A stretch of DNA of 60,105 nt from Candidatus Zixiibacteriota bacterium (GTDB lineage Bacteria > Zixibacteria > MSB-5A5 > UBA10806), in contig JAHEDG010000014.1 in NCBI GenBank assembly GCA_024641335.1, forward strand, positions 1 through 60,105, read 5' to 3'. Shown here in pieces: positions 11,562 through 24,591 of the stretch (its first letter is position 1; every line of letters begins with the position of its first letter). The notes below the pieces were generated by a model, which did not search any database, was not told the DNA's origin, and was given only the letters and a program-made list of their open reading frames with translations. Made by a program: the position numbers and the translations under genes.

Positions 11562-13358
11562 ATGGTTATTTTGAGAACGATTCTGATAGTAGTGGCCCTG
11601 AACGCGGCCGCCGCCGCCCAGATAGAGACCGGCGATTTTATAGCCGATTTCGAATCCGGCAATATCGCCAATATTCAAGAGGTCGGAATCGACAGCTTCA
11701 CCTTCGAGATCAGGCTCGATGATAACCACGGCGATACCTACGGATGGTATTATTTCGCCATCGCCGGCAACCGGGGACGAACTGTCACCCTCTTTCTGAC
11801 CAATCCCGACGGCTGGCAGAATATCAATTGCCATCCTCTGGTCTCCTTCGACAACCTGCATTGGGGACGAGTGAATGACGTCTGGATGAGCGACGGCCGG
11901 CTTTCCTTCAGACGGTACCTCCCGGCCGATACAGTCTGGTTCGTCCAGGATTTTCCCTATACAGTGACTTCCATGTATTCCTTTCTGGACAGCCTGGAAA
12001 GTTCTCCCGTTGTCGGCCGGCAGACTCTTGGATATTCGGTCCATAATCGGCCGGTGGATATGATAACCATAACCGACAATGAATACCCCGCCGCCCGCAA
12101 GAAAACGGTCTGGCTGATCTCCCGTCAGCACCCTATGGAAACACCGCCCACCTTCTTAATTCACAGCCTGATAAACCTGATTCTGAACGATAGCGAATTT
12201 TCGCGACGGTTTCTCCGGGATATCGATCTGAGAATCGTTCCTATCGTCAATGTGGACGGGGCGGCTGAGGGTTATTCTCGGCACAATGTCAATGGCAGGA
12301 ACCTAAATCGTGTCTGGAATCAAAATCTCGATCTGGAAGAGCCCGAAGTGCGGGCCGTGCATCGGGCTATCGACGATTATCTCTCCGACGGCGGCGACAT
12401 CGATCTCTTTATAGACCTGCACGCCGCCCCGGATTACTATGATTTCGGTTACCGGATGGCCCGCGATTTCTCAGGCGCCCCCTACTACTACAACCAGGAA
12501 ACCTTTATGCATCTTATCGAAACTTACGATCCCTGGCACGATCATACCCGCTGGCGCGATCTCGATACCAGCTACGCCTCCGGAGTCTCCTGCAATGTCC
12601 TATACAATATGTACGGCCTCGACGTCCTGACTATCGAGAATCCCTGGACCAAAAGAAATACCGGCGCTTTCATAACAGTTCAAACGCTCATCGATCAGGG
12701 TCCGCCGGCCGCCCTCGCGATCTATGACTATCTTTTCCCCTTGAATGTCTATGATGAAAACGACAATCTGATCGATACCCTGGCGATTTTCGAAAATATC
12801 TTGCCCAAAGTCAGCGACTACAACCGTCGGGTTAATAGCTCGCTGCAGATTTCCGCCTCCTGTTCCACCTCCGGAGATTCCGAAACAGTGACCCTTTATC
12901 GCGAGAATTTTGACGGACTGTTTTTACCTCTATTGCCTCTCGAAACCAACGATTCCGAGGCGGTGCCGGGTGACGGAGTAATCTCTGTTGCAGCCGGTCA
13001 GGAGATAATATTATCTTATATAGAACCCGATCTGCCTGACAGGATTTACCGACGATTCCTCCATGCGGTCGAACCGACGGGGATTCGCGGGCCTGATATC
13101 ACTCTGCCGGAGATAGACCTGGCTGCGTATCCCAACCCGTTCAATTCCACCTGCGTCATTGACATCAATAGCGGCGCGGATGAAATCAGGGTGTTCGATA
13201 TAAGCGGCGCGTTGGTCAACAGGCTGTCCGCGGTCGATGGGCGGGCCTATTGGGACGGCCGCTCAGCCGAAGGAAAATCGCTGGGATCAGGCGTTTACTT
13301 TCTTCAAGCCGCGATCAACGGCCAGGAAAAATCCGTCAAAATAATCCTGCTAAAATAG
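11562..13358 (+). CDS. Secreted M14 family zinc carboxypeptidase with sorting domain
   Basis: 598 residues. A signal peptide (about 1-20) is followed by a beta-sandwich-like N-terminal region and an M14 carboxypeptidase domain. Zinc ligands are His190 and Glu193 (RQHPMET) and His287 (FIDLHAAP); NGRNLNR (244-250) supplies the substrate-carboxylate arginine motif, and Glu359 in VLTIENPW is the likely catalytic base. The arrangement resembles the M14-6/Nna1-like subfamily. The last ~75 residues form the YPNPFNST...GSGVYFLQ...ILLK domain shared with two other proteins in this window, used for outer-membrane transit or anchoring in type IX-like systems. The substrate is unknown. The start is probably leaderless. 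Confidence 0.86.
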   Translation: MVILRTILIVVALNAAAAAQIETGDFIADFESGNIANIQEVGIDSFTFEIRLDDNHGDTYGWYYFAIAGNRGRTVTLFLTNPDGWQNINCHPLVSFDNLHWGRVNDVWMSDGRLSFRRYLPADTVWFVQDFPYTVTSMYSFLDSLESSPVVGRQTLGYSVHNRPVDMITITDNEYPAARKKTVWLISRQHPMETPPTFLIHSLINLILNDSEFSRRFLRDIDLRIVPIVNVDGAAEGYSRHNVNGRNLNRVWNQNLDLEEPEVRAVHRAIDDYLSDGGDIDLFIDLHAAPDYYDFGYRMARDFSGAPYYYNQETFMHLIETYDPWHDHTRWRDLDTSYASGVSCNVLYNMYGLDVLTIENPWTKRNTGAFITVQTLIDQGPPAALAIYDYLFPLNVYDENDNLIDTLAIFENILPKVSDYNRRVNSSLQISASCSTSGDSETVTLYRENFDGLFLPLLPLETNDSEAVPGDGVISVAAGQEIILSYIEPDLPDRIYRRFLHAVEPTGIRGPDITLPEIDLAAYPNPFNSTCVIDINSGADEIRVFDISGALVNRLSAVDGRAYWDGRSAEGKSLGSGVYFLQAAINGQEKSVKIILLK

Positions 13359-13431
13359 GGAGCAAAATATCTCCGAATTCTGTTATAAGGCCGGATGGTT
13401 GATTTGTATTGCTTAAGAAAAGGACCCAATA

Positions 13432-14958
13432 ATGAAAAAATCCGCTTTTGTTTTATTCGCCGCTATAATGATCTCCTCCGGGATCTTCGCTCAGGATATA
13501 TCCGAGGACGGCCATTTGACCGCCGCCCATGATGGCACTCCGGGAGGAATAGTAATTATTACCGATGATGTTCCCTTGCCCGATACACCCGACTATACCT
13601 GCGATTTGCGCATGCAGGTCGGTGGAATCGAATTCGGCGATTTTGATCGCGACGGTGATCTCGACCTGGCCGTAGGATGTTACCATTCCCAGAGTTATCC
13701 TCCTTACGACGACTGGCGCAATTTCGTCCTGACCAATAATAACGGACAATTGGAATCATCACCCTCCTGGTGGTCGGCAGATATGCGCTCCACCACTGAT
13801 GTCAGATGGGCTGATTTTAACGGTGATAACTATCCCGATCTGTTTGCCTGCAACGGCGATTTCTCATTCGATAATTCGGTGATCTATTTCGGATCTTATA
13901 ACGGGCTGGCCGCTAATCCCGGATGGCTGGCCAACGACAATACCTGGACCCTCTGCGCCGCCCCGTTCGATTATGATGATGACGGCGATATCGATGTGGC
14001 TACCGCCAACCAGGGAGCGAATGACGACCCATTTCGCCCCATATATATTTATGTCAACGACGGCAGCGGCCTGCCGACAACGCCGTCCTGGCAATCCAAC
14101 GACCAGATGATTACCAATTTCCTCAAATGGGGAGATATGACCGGCGACGGCTGGTACGAACTGGCCGCTTCCAAATGGGTCAATTTCCAAAGCGCCGTCT
14201 ACGGCAATAACGAGGGAGTTATCACAGGCTCCCCTGTCTGGACTTCCGGTTCTACCAGGGGCGATAAGGGTATCGGCTGGGCGGATATCGACGGAGACTA
14301 CTATCCGGAATTGGCAATCGGAGCGACCCAGCCGACCTGGCTTTTCGATAATACAGAAGGCCAACTCGGACAAACCCCTATATGGGAATCGAATAATTCT
14401 TTTCACGGCTGCCAGGATCTGGCCTGGGGCGATATCGACGGCGACGGTGATCCCGATCTGGCCACCGTTCATTTCTCCACCGGCAGTCTCCGGCTCTACC
14501 TGAATGTGAACGGAGTCCTCGAATCATCCCCCTCATGGGAATACGACGGCAACGCCAGCGGCACCGCCCTGGCCTTCGGCGATGTCAACGGTGACGGCAT
14601 GCTCGATCTGGCCATGGGACAATCGGGCACTCCGTCGGTGCTGGTCTTTTTGAATACTCTCCAAACCGCTGTAGACCCCGAACTCCAACAGCCAAAAGAA
14701 AACTCGCTTTCGCTAAACTACCCGAATCCGTTCAATTCTTCCACCGCCATCCGGCTCGAATTGGCTGAAAGCGGCCCTGTTTCTCTGGAAATCTTTGATC
14801 TTCTGGGACGTCGAGTGGAAGTTCTGGCCGACTATAACCTGTCCGCGGGAATTCATGATTTTATTTGGGACGCCAAAAATCGGCCGTCCGGCATATATTA
14901 TTGCCGGATGGTAACTTCCGGTCGAATCGAAACCCGACGACTGGCCCTGTTGAAATAA
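13432..14958 (+). CDS. Secreted FG-GAP/VCBS beta-propeller protein with sorting domain
   Basis: 508 residues. A signal peptide (MKKSAFVLFAAIMISSGIFAQ) is followed by about seven integrin-like FG-GAP/VCBS repeats, each with a Ca2+-loop signature such as DFDRDGDLDLAVG, DYDDDGDIDVATA and DIDGDGDPDLATV. This forms a predicted extracellular beta-propeller. The C-terminal ~85 residues (LNYPNPFNSS...IFDLLGRRVE...PSGIYY...LALLK) are the same sorting domain as in the flanking M14 peptidase. AAAGGA lies 10 nt before the ATG. Such proteins bind ligands or surfaces; no enzymatic motif is visible. It may be cotranscribed with the peptidase 73 bp upstream. Confidence 0.85.
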   Translation: MKKSAFVLFAAIMISSGIFAQDISEDGHLTAAHDGTPGGIVIITDDVPLPDTPDYTCDLRMQVGGIEFGDFDRDGDLDLAVGCYHSQSYPPYDDWRNFVLTNNNGQLESSPSWWSADMRSTTDVRWADFNGDNYPDLFACNGDFSFDNSVIYFGSYNGLAANPGWLANDNTWTLCAAPFDYDDDGDIDVATANQGANDDPFRPIYIYVNDGSGLPTTPSWQSNDQMITNFLKWGDMTGDGWYELAASKWVNFQSAVYGNNEGVITGSPVWTSGSTRGDKGIGWADIDGDYYPELAIGATQPTWLFDNTEGQLGQTPIWESNNSFHGCQDLAWGDIDGDGDPDLATVHFSTGSLRLYLNVNGVLESSPSWEYDGNASGTALAFGDVNGDGMLDLAMGQSGTPSVLVFLNTLQTAVDPELQQPKENSLSLNYPNPFNSSTAIRLELAESGPVSLEIFDLLGRRVEVLADYNLSAGIHDFIWDAKNRPSGIYYCRMVTSGRIETRRLALLK

Positions 14959-15078: not shown

Positions 15079-15993
15079 ATGGCCAACAGCGAACGTACAC
15101 CGACTGATTACCGGAAATTCCTCGATCCGGCCGTAGTCAGCAAGCTATCTTCGATAGAACTCAAAGCCAGACTTGTGGTTGAAGGGTTCATAGTCGGTCT
15201 GCACAGATCGCCGTATCACGGTTTTTCCGTGGAATTCGCCGAGCACCGCCAATATATGCCCGGCGACGATTTCAGGCATATCGATTGGAAAGTCTACGGT
15301 AAGAGCGATCGATTCTATATCAAGCAGTTCGAAGAGGAAACCAATCTCAAAGCGTATATTCTGCTGGATGCCTCTAATTCCATGGGATATAAATCCGATG
15401 GTATCTCGAAACTGGAATACGGTTCATACCTGGCCGCCTCTTTGGCCTATTTGATGCTCAGACAACAGGATGCCCCGGGACTATTGGTCTATGATGAGGC
15501 TATCAGATCCTATATTCCTCCTAAGGGAGCCCGGTCTCATATCACTCCCATTCTGGCCCAGCTTAATAATACCGGCCCATCGAATAAAACCGATGCCGCC
15601 GTGGCCTTCCACGAGCTGGCGGATAGAATCAAACGCCGGGGCTTGATTATAGTTATTTCAGACCTGTTGGATGATCCGGAAAGCCTGCTTTTAGGACTCA
15701 AACATTTCCGCCACCGCCGTCACGAGGTCATAGTCTTTCAGATACTGGATCCGTATGAAAGGAATTTCGCGTTCAAATCCGAGGCCAGGTTTAAGGATAT
15801 GGAAACCGGCCGGGAGCTTCTGACCGATCCCTGGCAGATAAAAGAAGAGTATATGTCGCGCCTGGGGGAATACCTTGATGTCATTTCCCGCGCCTGCCGT
15901 GAATCCCGAATAGATTACCATCTTCTGGATACCTCCGTTCCATTTGATCGGGCGCTTTTCGGTTACCTGGCCAGAAGATCAAAATTAGGTTGA
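15079..15993 (+). CDS. DUF58 domain protein (MoxR-associated)
   Basis: 304 residues of the soluble DUF58 family, which has a von Willebrand A-like fold and usually works with MoxR-type AAA ATPases in envelope or metalloenzyme maturation. The signature YMPGDDFRHIDWKVYGKSD lies around residues 59-77 and the MIDAS-like LLDASNSMGY around 95-104. No transmembrane helix is present. No moxR gene is adjacent, which is unusual because the pair is normally in one operon. The ATG immediately follows a TATAAT and is probably leaderless. The role here is unknown. Confidence 0.86.
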   Translation: MANSERTPTDYRKFLDPAVVSKLSSIELKARLVVEGFIVGLHRSPYHGFSVEFAEHRQYMPGDDFRHIDWKVYGKSDRFYIKQFEEETNLKAYILLDASNSMGYKSDGISKLEYGSYLAASLAYLMLRQQDAPGLLVYDEAIRSYIPPKGARSHITPILAQLNNTGPSNKTDAAVAFHELADRIKRRGLIIVISDLLDDPESLLLGLKHFRHRRHEVIVFQILDPYERNFAFKSEARFKDMETGRELLTDPWQIKEEYMSRLGEYLDVISRACRESRIDYHLLDTSVPFDRALFGYLARRSKLG

Positions 15994-16066: not shown

Positions 16067-16843
16067 ATGACTAAACAGCTTGTAATTTTGGCCCTGTTTT
16101 TCGGACTGACGGCCACAGCCGCGGCAGACCCGAAAATTCTGATCCCGGACGCCAAATGGGATTTCGGACATATCCCTCAAAAAAGCAAAGTAACCCATGA
16201 CTACCTGGTGAAAAACGTGGGCACCGATACCTTGAGGATTCTCAGGGTAAAACCCGGCTGAGGATGCACCAGCGCGCCGATTCAAAAAGATGTTTTGGCG
16301 CCCGGAGAGTCCACGGTCGTGGAACTGTCGTTCGACACAAAATCGTATAAAACCAGCATCAACAAATACGCCACCATTTACTCCAACGACCCCAGCCAGC
16401 CCCAGGTTAAAATACACCTGAGCTCCAAGGTTGATGCCGTTCCCGATACCACCCTGCCTTACGCTTTATCTCCTCAACGATTTAATTTCACCGAGAAAAA
16501 CAAAAAGCAGGAAATATATATCGAGAACAAAAGCGATAACCAGCTTCAACTTAATTTCATCGACGATCTGTTCGACGGGTTGAAGATGGATATTAAAAAA
16601 GATAAGATCGACCCCTGGAAAACATCCAAAATCAAGTTCGAGTGGAAAGGGGAATTCCAAAAAGAGAACATGGCCAGATCCCTGACCTTTTCCATGTCCG
16701 GACAGGATACCACTTTCTTTTCCATTCCGATAGTAATACAGGGAACGAATCCCACGCCTGAACCCGCGAAAAAAGAACCGGTTAAGAAAGATCCGGTCAA
16801 AAAGGATAGCGAAAAACCGTCGCTGGATGCCAAAAAGAAATAA
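16067..16843 (+). CDS. DUF1573 protein with in-frame TGA (candidate selenoprotein)
   Basis: One reading frame spans 16067-16843 except for a single TGA at 16259-16261. Read through, the protein is 258 residues: a signal peptide (about 1-20), a DUF1573 domain, a second beta-domain and a Lys/Pro-rich tail (EPAKKEPVKKDPVKK). The TGA sits in VKPG-TGA-GCTSAP, exactly where DUF1573 proteins have the first Cys of the SCGCT motif. TGA is a normal stop in neighbouring genes (for example hemC, hemD, hemE), so general recoding is excluded. A hairpin follows at the distance expected of a bacterial SECIS. I infer selenocysteine; a point mutation or sequencing error is the alternative. GAGG lies 9 nt before the chosen ATG. 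Function of the family is unknown; it is periplasmic or extracellular. Confidence 0.72.
16274..16301 (+). promoter_or_regulatory. Candidate bacterial SECIS hairpin
   Basis: Downstream of the in-frame TGA (16259-16261) a stem GCGC (16274-16277) / GCGC (16298-16301) encloses a 5-nt bulge ending in UU, then a 5-bp apical stem CAAAA (16283-16287) / TTTTG (16293-16297) with loop AGATG. The loop begins 26 nt after the TGA, within the usual range, and it contains G and U with bulged U residues below, features that SelB recognises. The upper stem is A-U rich, so stability is modest. Confidence 0.45.
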
Positions 16844-16861
16844 TGACCTTTGAATCACCGG

Positions 16862-16895
16862 GCCGCGATATCATCTGATATCGCGGCTTTTTTTT
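16862..16895 (+). terminator. Rho-independent terminator after the DUF1573 gene
   Basis: An inverted repeat GCCGCGATAT / ATATCGCGGC (16862-16887), perfect over at least 10 bp, is directly followed by eight T residues. It is the strongest intrinsic terminator in the window. Confidence 0.92.
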
Positions 16896-17094
16896 ATTCT
16901 GTCAATATGCCTCGATCCCTGACCTTGCCCCGTTTCGCGACCTGGCAACCGATGACCCTAAGAAAATTTGATTTGTTATGGCCATGTCAATACCGTATTT
17001 TACGGCCGCTCTCTTCTCGATTTCTCGGGATCTCGGAGAGAACGAAAATATCTGCCGGTATTGTTTTGCTGTTAATAGACGCTAAGGAGCAAGA
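16896..17094. other. Leader region of the acyl-CoA dehydrogenase gene
   Basis: About 200 bp between the terminator and the next start. Apart from the AAGGAG ribosome binding site just before 17095, no operator or RNA structure is evident. Confidence 0.4.
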
Positions 17095-19763: not shown

Positions 19764-20378
19764 ATGCCTTCCGCGGTCAAAGAAAAACCGTTGCCTGCAA
19801 GACGTAATAGCCAGTACAATAAGAAGTTATCATCCATACTCAAAGCCGCGTCCGAGATCATCGCCCGTCACGGTTTCGAGGGGGCGTCGATACGCCAGGT
19901 GGCCGCTAAAGCTGGAATCGGGCTTTCCGGAATTTACTATTATTTCAAAAGCAAAGATGAACTGCTCTTCGCCATTCAGGAAAATACCTTCTCGACCTTG
20001 GCCGAATCGCTCGAAAAACGGCTCGAAGCGGTTTCGACCGCCCGAGAGAGACTTAAAGCCGTCCTCGATAACCATTTCCATTTCTTTCTCAATAATATGG
20101 ACGATCTGAAAGTCTGTGTGCACGAAATCGAATCGCTCTCCGGAAAATATTATAAAGATATTCTGAAAATCAGACGGAAATATTTCGGACTGGTCAGGAA
20201 TATCGTCGCCGAGAATATCTCGTCGCCGGCGGAATTCAATGACGATCTTGTCTCTCTTTATCTGTTCGGATCGCTCAACTGGATATATATGTGGTACGAT
20301 CCCCGGCGCAACCCCGATATGGGCGTCCTTTCCGATCAGCTTCTGGAAATTTTTCTACATGGAATAAAAGCAACTTAA
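19764..20378 (+). CDS. TetR/AcrR family transcriptional regulator
   Basis: 204 residues with an N-terminal helix-turn-helix (about 25-70: ILKAASEIIARHGFEGASI, then AGIGLSGIYYYFKSKDELL) and a helical ligand-binding domain. The family represses transcription until a ligand, often an acyl-CoA in catabolic clusters, is bound. GAGG lies 5 nt before the ATG. The gene ends 17 bp before the reductase operon, so it is probably its first gene and controls itself and the operon through the palindrome at 19728-19737. The inducer is unknown; benzoyl-CoA or a pathway acyl-CoA would be the natural candidate. Confidence 0.88.
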   Translation: MPSAVKEKPLPARRNSQYNKKLSSILKAASEIIARHGFEGASIRQVAAKAGIGLSGIYYYFKSKDELLFAIQENTFSTLAESLEKRLEAVSTARERLKAVLDNHFHFFLNNMDDLKVCVHEIESLSGKYYKDILKIRRKYFGLVRNIVAENISSPAEFNDDLVSLYLFGSLNWIYMWYDPRRNPDMGVLSDQLLEIFLHGIKAT

Positions 20379-20395
20379 GATACGCAAGGTGGGTT

Positions 20396-21523
20396 ATGTT
20401 CGAAAAATTCTTTGAATGGTATGAAAAACGGCATGATTACGCCCGTGATTGGATGGCCAAAACCGGCGGCGACGTTGTCGGCTGTTTCTGCAGTTACGCT
20501 CCCGAAGAGATAATCTATGCCGCCGGGCTTCTGCCCGTGCGCATGCTCGGCTCCCACGAACCGCAGGATGTCACCGAGCCGCACATATTCGGCATGTTCT
20601 GCCCGTTTTGTCGTGACGTACTGGCGCAGGGGCTCAAGGGGCGTTACGATTACATGAAAGGTATAATGATCGCGCAGTCCTGCCTGCATATCAGGCAGTC
20701 GTTCACCTCCTGGAAAAAACATGTGCCGATAGATTACGCCTATTATCTCTATATGCCCAACAAAGTGCAGACCGAACATGCCCGGCCGTACCTAAAAAGC
20801 GAGTTCGAAAAATTCAGAAAATCGCTGGAGGAATGGAGAGGCAAAGAGATAACCGATCAGGCCCTGCGCGAATCGGCGGAGCTGCACAACGAAAACAGGC
20901 GGCTCCTGCACGCGGTTTATGAGCTTCGCAAGGGTCCTAACCCCGCTATCACCGGCCTGGAGGCGATGGTCATGGTGGCCTCATCGTTTTTTGTGGATAA
21001 AAAAGATCACAACGCCGAACTGAATCGGATCCTGCCTCAACTCAAAGACAGACAGCTCGGCAGGGAAACCGGAGCGCGTTTGATGATTGTCGGCTCCGAG
21101 GACGACGACACCGATTTCGTCAGGATGGTCGAATCGGTCGGGGCGACTATCGTGGTCGACGAGCATTGCACCGGCACCCGCTATTTCTGGAACCTGACTC
21201 AATATCAAAACGGCGATATTTTACAGGATCTGGCCAATCGTTATATCGACAGGCCTCCCTGCCCGACCAAAGATTGGGAGGAACGCCAGAGATTTCCCCA
21301 TATCCTTCAATTAGCTAAAGACTACAAAGCCGACGGCGTTATTCTGATACAACAAAAATTCTGCGACCCGCACGAATGCGATATCCCACCGTTGAAGGAG
21401 TATCTCAACGCCAACGGTTTCCCAACGTTGTTTCTGGAATTTGATGTTACTGTGCCTCTGGGTCCGATGCGTATCAGGGTCGAGGCGTTTTTGGAGATGG
21501 TCGGTGAAGAGGAACTGTTTTAG
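20396..21523 (+). CDS. bzdN: Benzoyl-CoA reductase-like catalytic subunit (BzdN/BcrC type)
   Basis: 375 residues of the HgdB/BcrB/BcrC fold shared by 2-hydroxyacyl-CoA dehydratases and class I benzoyl-CoA reductases. Cluster-ligand cysteines appear in GCFCSYAPEEI, FCPFCRDVL and KFCDPHECDIP, and EFDVTVPLGPMR is the family C-terminal motif. Length fits BzdN of Azoarcus. The ATG at 20396 follows an AGGTGGG site; in-frame upstream codons lie within tetR. Together with the next three genes it should form a four-subunit enzyme that reduces an aromatic (or related) acyl-CoA with ferredoxin and ATP. That two different ATPase subunits follow favours a reductase over a dehydratase. The substrate itself is inferred. 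Confidence 0.82.
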   Translation: MFEKFFEWYEKRHDYARDWMAKTGGDVVGCFCSYAPEEIIYAAGLLPVRMLGSHEPQDVTEPHIFGMFCPFCRDVLAQGLKGRYDYMKGIMIAQSCLHIRQSFTSWKKHVPIDYAYYLYMPNKVQTEHARPYLKSEFEKFRKSLEEWRGKEITDQALRESAELHNENRRLLHAVYELRKGPNPAITGLEAMVMVASSFFVDKKDHNAELNRILPQLKDRQLGRETGARLMIVGSEDDDTDFVRMVESVGATIVVDEHCTGTRYFWNLTQYQNGDILQDLANRYIDRPPCPTKDWEERQRFPHILQLAKDYKADGVILIQQKFCDPHECDIPPLKEYLNANGFPTLFLEFDVTVPLGPMRIRVEAFLEMVGEEELF

Positions 21524-21547
21524 TCCGCTGGACAATAAGGAGCTGTT

Positions 21548-22879
21548 ATGGCAATATACAAAACCGAACCGCTGAAATGCTGGAGCAAGGCCAAGGAACT
21601 ACGGCAAAAATATTATAAAGATTACCAGGAAGCCCACACTAAAGGCGGCATCCGCTGGACAGGCGGAGCCTGGGCGTTCGACGCTCTCCCCGCGGGGCTG
21701 GGCCGCGACGTCTACAATATCACAGGCGAACCGTACGGCGCCTCCCTCGCTTTCGATAAAAAGCTGTCGCAGGAATGTATGGAAGCGGCCGAGGCCAAAG
21801 GCTGGGCCCGCGATCTTTGCAGTTATATGCGCAATTACTGGGGCTCGATGTATCTGAATAAGTACGCTTTCGGCGGCGATTACCCCTCGCCCGATTTCTG
21901 CTACCAGGATCATATCTGCTGCAGCCACGGCAAATGGTACCAGCACGTGGCCGAGTATAAGAAGATCCCTTATTTCTGCCTCGACGTTTCCGTCGGCCCG
22001 TATAAGGATCTCGACGAAGACAAACTCATGTTCGTGGTCAACCAGATGCACGAAGCGATCGAATGGCTGGAAAAAGTCACCGGACGAAAATACCAGGATG
22101 AATTGCTATTCGAGGCCGTGGAGAACGAACTCCGCTCCACCTCGACATGGGCAGAAATCTGTTATCTCAATATGGCCCGCCCCGCTCCTCTGGATGAAAA
22201 AACCATGTACTCGCTCTACGTCCACGGAACATTATCCAAGCATTCCAAAGAGATGGCCGATTTCTACGAGGAGCTTCGGGACGAGGTAAAATATAGAGTC
22301 GAGAATCAGATCGCGGCCTTACCCAACGAGCGCTGCCGTTTGATGTCCGATACGCAGCCGCCCTGGGGTTTCCTGAAAGTATTCCGTTATCTCGAGCAGT
22401 ACGGCGCTATTTCGGTAGGATCGTTGTATACGTTCGGACTGATCGGGATCTGGGAAACCAAGCCCGACGGCACCTGGGGGCCGCGAACAACCCCGATGCA
22501 AAGAGGCGAGAGGATCACCACCCGTGATCAGGCTTTACGCGTATTGGCCGACTGGAATCTTTCCAAACCGGAGTGGCAGCATTTCTACGATCCCGATCTG
22601 AAAACCGAAATGATGCTGCAGATAGCCAGGCAATGGGAATTAGACGGCGTGATGCTTCATTTGAACAGGGGCTGCGAGGGTCTCTCGTGCGGCATAATGG
22701 AAAATCGTCTCGGTATCGCCGAGGCCGGGGTTCCCGTGATGACCTTCGAGGGAAATATGGGGGACGAAAGGGAATTCGACTTTAAGGGTGTCATGTCGAG
22801 GATCGATTCGTTTATGGAACGGCTCGGCTATGATATGAAATCCGGAGGATCAACCGGAAAAGTCCCGGCGGGAGCTTAA
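21548..22879 (+). CDS. bzdO: Benzoyl-CoA reductase-like catalytic subunit (BzdO/BcrB type)
   Basis: 443 residues, the second HgdB-fold catalytic subunit, expected to pair with the preceding one and share the active-site [4Fe-4S] clusters. Conserved cysteines occur in [20 protein letters not shown] and [14 protein letters not shown], and the C-terminal [16 protein letters not shown] is the family substrate-pocket motif. Length matches BzdO (about 445 aa) more closely than dehydratase beta subunits (about 380 aa). It begins 25 nt after bzdN with an AAGGAG site. Confidence 0.82.
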
Positions 22880-22934
22880 AAGTGATAAGAATAATTTTGT
22901 CCTGCCAATCGGCGGGAGCAATAAAGGAGGTACA

Positions 22935-23714
22935 ATGATCACCGCGGGCATCGATATGGGAGCCAAGCATATAAAAGTGGTGATATTAAAGGATGGCGAG
23001 GTAATCGGCAAATCGAAGATCTCAACCGGATTCGATCAGGGGGCCTCAGCCCGAAAGGGCTTGGACGAAGCTGGCAGTCAGGCCGGGATCGAGTTGTCGG
23101 CCATAGAGCATATCACCGCTACCGGAGCGGGGAGAAAATCCGTTCCTGAAAAGAATTCCGAGGTAACAGAGGTCGGCGCGGGAGCCGTCGGAACGATCCG
23201 TCTTATTCCCGAGGCCAGAACGGTTGTTGATGTCGGCGCCGAAGAGGGACGAGGCATAAAAATCGACGGGGCCGGCAAAGTGATCGATTTCGCGGTCAAT
23301 GAGAAATGCGCCGCCGGGGCCGGTTCGTTCGCCGAATCGATGTCCCGGGCGTTGGAGATGACTGTCAGAGAATTCGGCGAAATATCGTTGAAATCGGAAA
23401 AGACAATTCCTATGAACGCCCAATGCACAGTCTTCGCCGAATCGGAAGTCGTTTCCCTTCTGCACGCTCAGACGCCGAAACCGGATATCGCCCGGGCTGT
23501 CTGCGACGCCATAGCCAGCCGAATAACCTCTATGGTGCGCCGGGTCGGAATTGAGCAGAAAGTCGCCCTGATAGGCGGAGTCTCCCATAATATAGGATTT
23601 GTTTCATCTCTCAAGAGGGCGCTGAACTGCGAAGTTATAATACCTGAAGATCCCGATTACGTGGGAGCGTTGGGCGCCGCTATAATTGCCGGGGAAAGGA
23701 AAACGAATGGCTGA
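22935..23714 (+). CDS. bzdP: Benzoyl-CoA reductase-like ATPase subunit (BzdP/BcrD type)
   Basis: 259 residues of the BadF/BadG/BcrA/BcrD (ASKHA) ATPase family. Nucleotide-binding motifs are GIDMGAKHIK at the N-terminus, VVDVGAEEG and the C-terminal GGVSHN and GALGAA. Cys125 (NEKCAAGAG) and Cys164 (NAQCTVFAES) are the ligands that each ATPase monomer gives to the bridging [4Fe-4S] cluster. ATP hydrolysis here drives electron transfer to the catalytic subunits. A strong AAAGGAGG site lies upstream of the ATG, and the stop overlaps the next gene by 8 nt. Confidence 0.87.
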   Translation: MITAGIDMGAKHIKVVILKDGEVIGKSKISTGFDQGASARKGLDEAGSQAGIELSAIEHITATGAGRKSVPEKNSEVTEVGAGAVGTIRLIPEARTVVDVGAEEGRGIKIDGAGKVIDFAVNEKCAAGAGSFAESMSRALEMTVREFGEISLKSEKTIPMNAQCTVFAESEVVSLLHAQTPKPDIARAVCDAIASRITSMVRRVGIEQKVALIGGVSHNIGFVSSLKRALNCEVIIPEDPDYVGALGAAIIAGERKTNG

Positions 23715-24591
23715 AAATAAAGAATTCTGGCGCTGGACCGAATACTCCTGGCGCGATGAAAATAAAGACTGGCGCGGCGCCGCGATAATCACAGCGGGTA
23801 TCGACGTCGGCTCGGTATCGTCACAGGCGGTCATCATGGCCGACGGTGAGCTTTACGCTTTTAACAACACCCGCACAGGATCGAACTCCCCTGATTCGGC
23901 CAATAAGGCGATAGAGGGAGCGTTGGCCGGAACAGGCCTGACATTGGAGAATATCAATTTCATAGTCGGCACCGGTTACGGCCGTGTCAATGTCCCCTTC
24001 GCTCATAAGGCGGTAACGGAGATTGCCTGTCATGCCCGTGGCGCGAATTTCATGGGCGGTTCCGAGATCCGGACCATACTCGATATGGGCGGCCAGGATT
24101 GCAAAGCAATTCATTGCGATGAGAAAGGCAAAGTCACCAATTTCAAAATGAACGATAAATGCGCCGCCGGAACCGGTCGGGGTATGGAAGTTATGGCTGA
24201 TCTTTTAGAGGTTCCCATTACCGAGGTGGGGGATCTCTCCTTTCAGGTGGAAGAAGAACCGCCCCCGGTATCGTCGACCTGCGTAGTTTTCGCCAAGTCC
24301 GAGGCCATGGCTCTTTTGCGTGACGGCTGGAAAAAAGAGAAGGTTTTGGCCGCCTATTGTTCGGCTATGGCGCACCGTGTATCCTCTCTCCTCGATTCGG
24401 TGGGAGTTCAGGAAAAGTTTTTCATCACCGGCGGAATCGCCAAAAACCGAGGAGTAGTCGAACGGCTGGAAAAAGAATTAGGCGTAAAGGCGGTCAAAAC
24501 CAAAATCGATTCCCAGATCGCCGGAGCGTTGGGCGCAGCGCTCTTCGCTAAAACCCTTTTCGAAAAACAGCAGGCTAAAAGCGTAGCCTGA
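23707..24591 (+). CDS. bzdQ: Benzoyl-CoA reductase-like ATPase subunit (BzdQ/BcrA type)
   Basis: 294 residues, the second ASKHA ATPase. It has an N-terminal extension (EFWRWTEYSW) that I recall from BzdQ/BcrA-type subunits and that simple dehydratase activators lack. Cys152 (NDKCAAGTG) and Cys192 (SSTCVVFAKSEA) should ligate the bridging cluster, and GIDVGSVSSQ, DMGGQDCK and GGIAKN are the nucleotide-binding motifs. The presence of two different ATPases implies a heterodimeric activator, as in benzoyl-CoA reductase. The start at 23707 follows AAAGGA within the end of bzdP. Confidence 0.88.
   Translation: MAENKEFWRWTEYSWRDENKDWRGAAIITAGIDVGSVSSQAVIMADGELYAFNNTRTGSNSPDSANKAIEGALAGTGLTLENINFIVGTGYGRVNVPFAHKAVTEIACHARGANFMGGSEIRTILDMGGQDCKAIHCDEKGKVTNFKMNDKCAAGTGRGMEVMADLLEVPITEVGDLSFQVEEEPPPVSSTCVVFAKSEAMALLRDGWKKEKVLAAYCSAMAHRVSSLLDSVGVQEKFFITGGIAKNRGVVERLEKELGVKAVKTKIDSQIAGALGAALFAKTLFEKQQAKSVA

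Follow-up and report, generated by a model that had tools for sequence, protein, structure and literature searches.

In the published model of the bacterial SECIS element (bSECIS), a stem of 4–16 bp with a minimum free energy of ≤−7.5 kcal/mol carries a small apical loop that lies 16–37 nt past the UGA and has a G within its first two positions, usually as G[G/U]; a review from 2026 states outright that some elements do not conform and that these hint at additional classes (PMC13188914). DUF1573 proteins with the motif UGC (U: selenocysteine, Sec) are listed among the predicted selenoprotein families, and Zixiibacteriota are not named in these lists (PMC9312934, PMC13188914). An NCBIfam model, OS_HP2_seleno (NF041425), is also available, with a curated cut-off of 100 bits. 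In the literature searched for Zixibacteria together with selenocysteine, the phylum appears solely as a reconstructed genome. The likely primary source behind both review listings is reportedly a 2007 analysis of an Olavius symbiont.

The window, that is, the whole stretch of 60 105 nt that was analysed (Candidatus Zixiibacteriota bacterium, contig JAHEDG010000014.1), contains a DUF1573 gene, the features of which are given in Table 1. Its frame is interrupted solely by one in-frame TGA (codon 65, in the context VKPG-U-GCTSAP of the read-through translation), and re-reading of the frame agreed with the earlier note, in which the remainder had been described as open. The read-through protein was matched by Pfam DUF1573 (PF07610) over residues 29–113 with E=2.4e-24 and a score of 85.6 bits (Pfam gathering score 26.1), the match crossing the TGA; the same locus was recovered, flagged “1 TGA”, when the whole genome was searched for DUF1573. 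Against NF041425 the protein scored 82 bits, under the curated cut-off, and on this score it is to be regarded as related to, but outside, the curated OS_HP2_seleno subfamily. It has the same domain as the listed selenoproteins and the same U-G-C motif with Sec in first place. The earlier proposal of a new selenoprotein family was given up, since DUF1573 with UGC is already listed and an NCBIfam model exists. With the family already known, what looks new is that it occurs throughout the phylum and that Sec and Cys genes form tandem pairs; most novel is the proposed distal two-stem SECIS, which is well supported. The DUF58 gene is also found upstream of the Sec DUF1573 gene in three genomes of the window gene's family (G115, G116, G117).

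Table 1. Features of the DUF1573 locus; positions are counted from the first nucleotide of the window.
Feature	Position	Strand	Details	Basis
DUF58/VWA gene	15079–15993	+	directly upstream of the DUF1573 selenoprotein gene, same strand	
DUF1573 selenoprotein gene	16067–16843	+	258 aa, Sec as residue 65, stop TAA	ORF reading and DUF1573 match
Probable Sec-type signal peptide	16067–16126	+	MTKQLVILALFFGLTATAAA/D	read by eye from the sequence
DUF1573 (HYDIN-like Ig fold) domain	16151–16405	+		profile match, AlphaFold2 model, structure comparison
UGA selenocysteine codon	16259–16261	+	position 1 of the U-G-C motif	frame, phylum loci, codon alignment
Putative SECIS stem I (accessory)	16274–16301	+	16274–16280 paired with 16295–16301; hairpin of the earlier note	
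Putative SECIS stem II	16310–16323	+	UCCAC-GGUC-GUGGA; loop GGUC at 16315–16318; proposed SelB-binding hairpin	
Intrinsic terminator	16860–16897	+	13 bp stem, T run, 16 nt past the stop codon	

Elsewhere in the window, the region 11562–14958 encodes an M14 carboxypeptidase together with an FG-GAP repeat protein, both bearing a Por secretion tail, a sorting domain for type IX secretion. The region 20291–24591 encodes 2-hydroxyacyl-CoA dehydratase-like subunits and an activator ATPase of the BadF/BcrA type; next comes a ferredoxin-like ORF. The TGA from which the frame of this ORF runs on overlaps the ribosome-binding site of the ORF and is not a selenoprotein signal.

All 132 Zixiibacteriota genomes were searched for DUF1573 relatives; these were found in 131 of them, very many flagged with one TGA. 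Among the fetched loci, at least 59 distinct sequences carry TGA at position 1 of U-G-C, nearly all within PGUGC[TA]xAP, and 21 distinct sequences have C-[GS]-C at the same column. These two sets supplied the homologues with TGA or Cys at the site that had been called for earlier, and bore out that the TGA takes the place of the first Cys in the DUF1573 CxC pair. In the codon alignment of the two nearest families, TGA occupies the column in 6/6 members. Sec and Cys genes are frequently adjacent or in tandem (e.g., in G118, G089, G087, and G034), and the tree shows at least 12 Sec/Cys state changes on well-supported (starred) branches, together with several Sec/Cys sister pairs each drawn from one genome. 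One contig (L183) holds three Sec DUF1573 genes in tandem, and another locus (L180, 3859–7268) four consecutive DUF1573 genes, of which three have Cys motifs (PGCGCT, VSCGCT, PACGCT) and the remaining one has TGA. When the pattern PGUGCxxAP was scanned for, every convincing match among the 80 loci listed was from Zixiibacteriota (including GN15), and the other loci among these 80 were read as chance frames. No homologue was found in the plasmid collection searched.

The loop of the distal hairpin (stem II) lies 53 nt past the UGA in the window. In the window gene's group, the UCCAC-GGUC-GUGGA hairpin occurs with a UGA-to-loop spacing of exactly 53 nt in 6/6 genes; the other families mostly have GCUGUC-GGY-GACAGC with a G[GU]-type loop, at a spacing of exactly 42 nt in 49/53. 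Both spacings, 53 nt in the window and 42 nt in most relatives, fall outside the 16–37 nt rule of the canonical bSECIS (E. coli fdhF type), with which the hairpin nevertheless shares a small apical loop starting G-G or G-U; the conserved intervening stem (stem I) is a further difference. The GGUC tetraloop of the window is the same as that of E. coli fdhF. The distal hairpin comprises 5–6 bp and, taken alone, amounts to −5.4 to −6.3 kcal/mol in the window's group and to a mean of −7.9 kcal/mol in the others; the fold of the window including stem I amounts to −19.5 kcal/mol. Within the canonical range, a G[GU]-loop hairpin was found in a minority of the Sec genes (17/53) and in 11/21 Cys genes, and this criterion does not discriminate between the two.

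Discrimination was obtained at the distal range, where any hairpin at all was found in 5/21 Cys genes and a GGU loop in 0/21. Over phylogenetically independent pairs, the strict GGU hairpin coincides with Sec in about 8 out of 12 and runs against it in 0 (median sign-test p=0.008). Folding z values (energy relative to synonymous-codon shuffles) were used in place of an RNAalifold consensus, of which almost none was obtained over all Sec genes, apparently owing to differences between species in the register of stem I. For the distal hairpin of the other families the mean z was −2.14 in Sec genes versus −0.33 in Cys genes, and for the GGUC hairpin of the window's group it was −2.15 versus −0.26 in Cys genes. 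The five codons under the latter hairpin are nearly identical in six species (chance about 1e-13, an overstated figure, as the species are related and the codons were assumed to be independent). At the hairpin, the Sec proteins of most other families read AVGDS, versus mostly APGDS in the Cys paralogues; judged from these sequences, the distal hairpin costs a protein residue there. In G118, it is kept in the Sec copy and lost in the tandem Cys copy. The Cys genes L040 (G087), L030 (G003), and L035 (G004) carry altered SECIS-like hairpins, with GCTGTCGGAGACAGC at a spacing of 42 nt and CGGC or GGCG loops at 53 nt; two or three of these are apparently relics of a change from Sec to Cys.

Among the Sec genes, a few have one broken pair in the distal stem (e.g., L037 and L052), some have a GGC loop instead of GGU, and three genomes of family f2 have a differently placed hairpin, GCGGAAU-AGUU-AUUCCGC, at about +30. 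A divergent Sec-DUF1573 (K[AP][GT]UGCT) was observed at L131, L136, and L137 (genomes G111, G112, and G114), with a hairpin, GCGGAATAGTTATTCCGC, about 30 nt past the TGA, one stem pair of which alternates between GC and GU/AC forms. An Rfam scan of the region gave no match. In the SelD genes of the phylum, hairpins lie at about +18, +21, or +33 and have loops of the kind GGU, GUU, or GUC, and the SelB of the lineage therefore plausibly accepts such loops. A shift of every SECIS by one helical turn in families f1 and f2 (SelD loop at +33 rather than at +18 to +21) was considered and rejected, as a SelD loop at about +33 is likewise seen beyond f1/f2, in G007 and G103 among others. From its conservation, its loop, and its association with Sec, stem II is probably the SelB binding site.

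The earlier note had identified the SECIS with stem I. The stem is real, but its loop in the window, AAAAAG, is without the G-rich SelB motif, and stem II fits better. In the window's group, z for stem I was −3.21 versus −0.43 in Cys genes, and in the other families the intervening stem had a mean z of −1.58 in Sec genes versus 0.01 in Cys genes. In these other families no pair in the whole region covaries more strongly than the central pair of this stem, columns 15–32 (45/51 paired versus 26.5 expected on permutation), the phylogenetically independent changes being few (3 supported pairs, none contrary, at most one concordant). If stem I itself were the SECIS, with its loop in the canonical 16–37 nt range, the distal hairpin would have to be something else. 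The stability of stem I beyond that of synonymous shuffles in Sec genes, its agreement with the published spacing, and the GGA or GGAAAA loops seen in some species speak for this arrangement; it is unlikely all the same, because the loop varies among species and has no initial G in the window, because the SelD elements of the phylum have GGU/GU-type loops unlike it, and because it is the distal hairpin that is near-invariant, with fixed spacing and a G-G-Y loop, and that Cys genes lack or have in changed form. A bipartite SECIS is the most likely arrangement. With stem I looped out, the distal loop is left about 16–26 nt from the UGA, within the canonical range, and stem I seems reasonably likely to act as a bridge over the extra distance. 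On balance, we favour a distinct two-stem class of bacterial SECIS, in which a SelB-binding GGY hairpin would stand at a fixed 42 or 53 nt and an accessory stem would loop out the excess.

The machinery for Sec insertion was sought in the host genome (2.86 Mb, completeness estimate 100 %), as had been proposed earlier, and all four components were found: selA, selB, and selD, which adjoin on contig 69, and tRNA-Sec with a TCA anticodon, about 4 kb off. The host selD itself carries an in-frame TGA, as do most of the complete selD genes listed for the phylum (one each). SelA was above the cut-off in 116/132 phylum genomes. G069 and G127 have a TGA DUF1573 and a TGA selD yet gave no selA match; for G127, rated 100 % complete, an assembly gap is most simply assumed. 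Two selenoproteins were seen in the host genome, SelD and the window DUF1573. In a search of this genome for a Sec formate dehydrogenase, the sole molybdopterin Fe4S4 match was NuoG of complex I on contig 42 (L287).

Taken together, the machinery, the phylum-wide conservation of the TGA, the Cys paralogues, the purifying selection, and the RNA structure make it nearly certain that the window DUF1573 gene encodes a selenoprotein, and the earlier claim to this effect is strongly supported. A selenium-free reading, with UGA reassigned or suppressed to, for example, Trp or Cys, would also account for read-through of the UGA in this gene; it is very improbable, given that the genome has a dedicated tRNA-Sec with selA, selB, and selD, that in the motif-bearing genes read the UGA column alternates with Cys alone, that a SECIS-like RNA structure is found specifically in UGA genes, and that TGA is an ordinary stop in the window, where it ends 14/37 long ORFs, just as the absence of global reassignment had been noted before. 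Although a lone TGA in one metagenome-assembled gene could be a sequencing error or mark a decaying pseudogene, this is exceedingly improbable with the identical TGA column in 59 distinct genes of many families, purifying selection past the TGA, and an intact stop codon and terminator. In comparisons of the window gene with its relatives, pN was 0.27–0.44 and pS 0.68–0.90, with the same pattern 5′ and 3′ of the TGA; the downstream half, described earlier as open and protein-like, is under purifying selection. Because the TGA column is conserved across the phylum and purifying selection acts on both sides of it, error, decay, and reassignment are effectively excluded.

AlphaFold2 modelled the protein with confidence (mean pLDDT 87) as a two-domain beta structure, in which U65 and C67 lie in the stretch after strand 56–63 and a second beta domain (strands 132–224) follows the DUF1573 domain. 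By profile and by structure, the fold class is common to HYDIN/ASH-type Ig domains (PF22544; cilia central-pair proteins, CEP192 SPD-2, Porphyromonas 2qsv), though with about 6–18 % identity and a large rmsd over two domains. The proteins of this type are structural, and the Ig/ASH-type matches are uninformative on the chemistry of the UGC motif. With its probable signal peptide, the product would be exported and the Sec-Gly-Cys motif placed outside the cytoplasm. There a thiol/selenol redox role is the leading reading, at roughly even chances; Sec-Gly-Cys, which is interchangeable with Cys-Gly-Cys, fits such a pair. Binding of a soft metal would be the alternative. Synthetic CGC peptides mimic disulfide isomerase, which offers a lead.

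The proposed mechanism is as follows: The UGA would be read as selenocysteine by ribosomes by means of SelB and tRNA-Sec. Stem I would fold out about 28 nt, and the GGUC hairpin, bound by SelB, would thereby be brought near the UGA. In the exported protein, Sec-Gly-Cys at the edge of the first Ig-like domain would act as a redox pair (selenenylsulfide/selenol-thiol). As a whole, the explanation as a functional, exported DUF1573 selenoprotein with a two-stem SECIS is very likely.

For annotation, the locus is a concrete case of a probable SECIS outside the spacing rule of SECIS finders: programs limited to 16–37 nt would miss the element of the window, and in standard annotation the gene would be cut short or made to start past the TGA. 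If the two-stem SECIS is true, it would permit Sec in a protein segment whose conserved CGCTxAP residues would be in conflict with a canonical hairpin. A thinly documented predicted family becomes one that is phylum-wide, with dozens of Sec genes and many natural Sec/Cys pairs; these pairs, often in tandem in one genome, are a good system in which to study what Sec adds.
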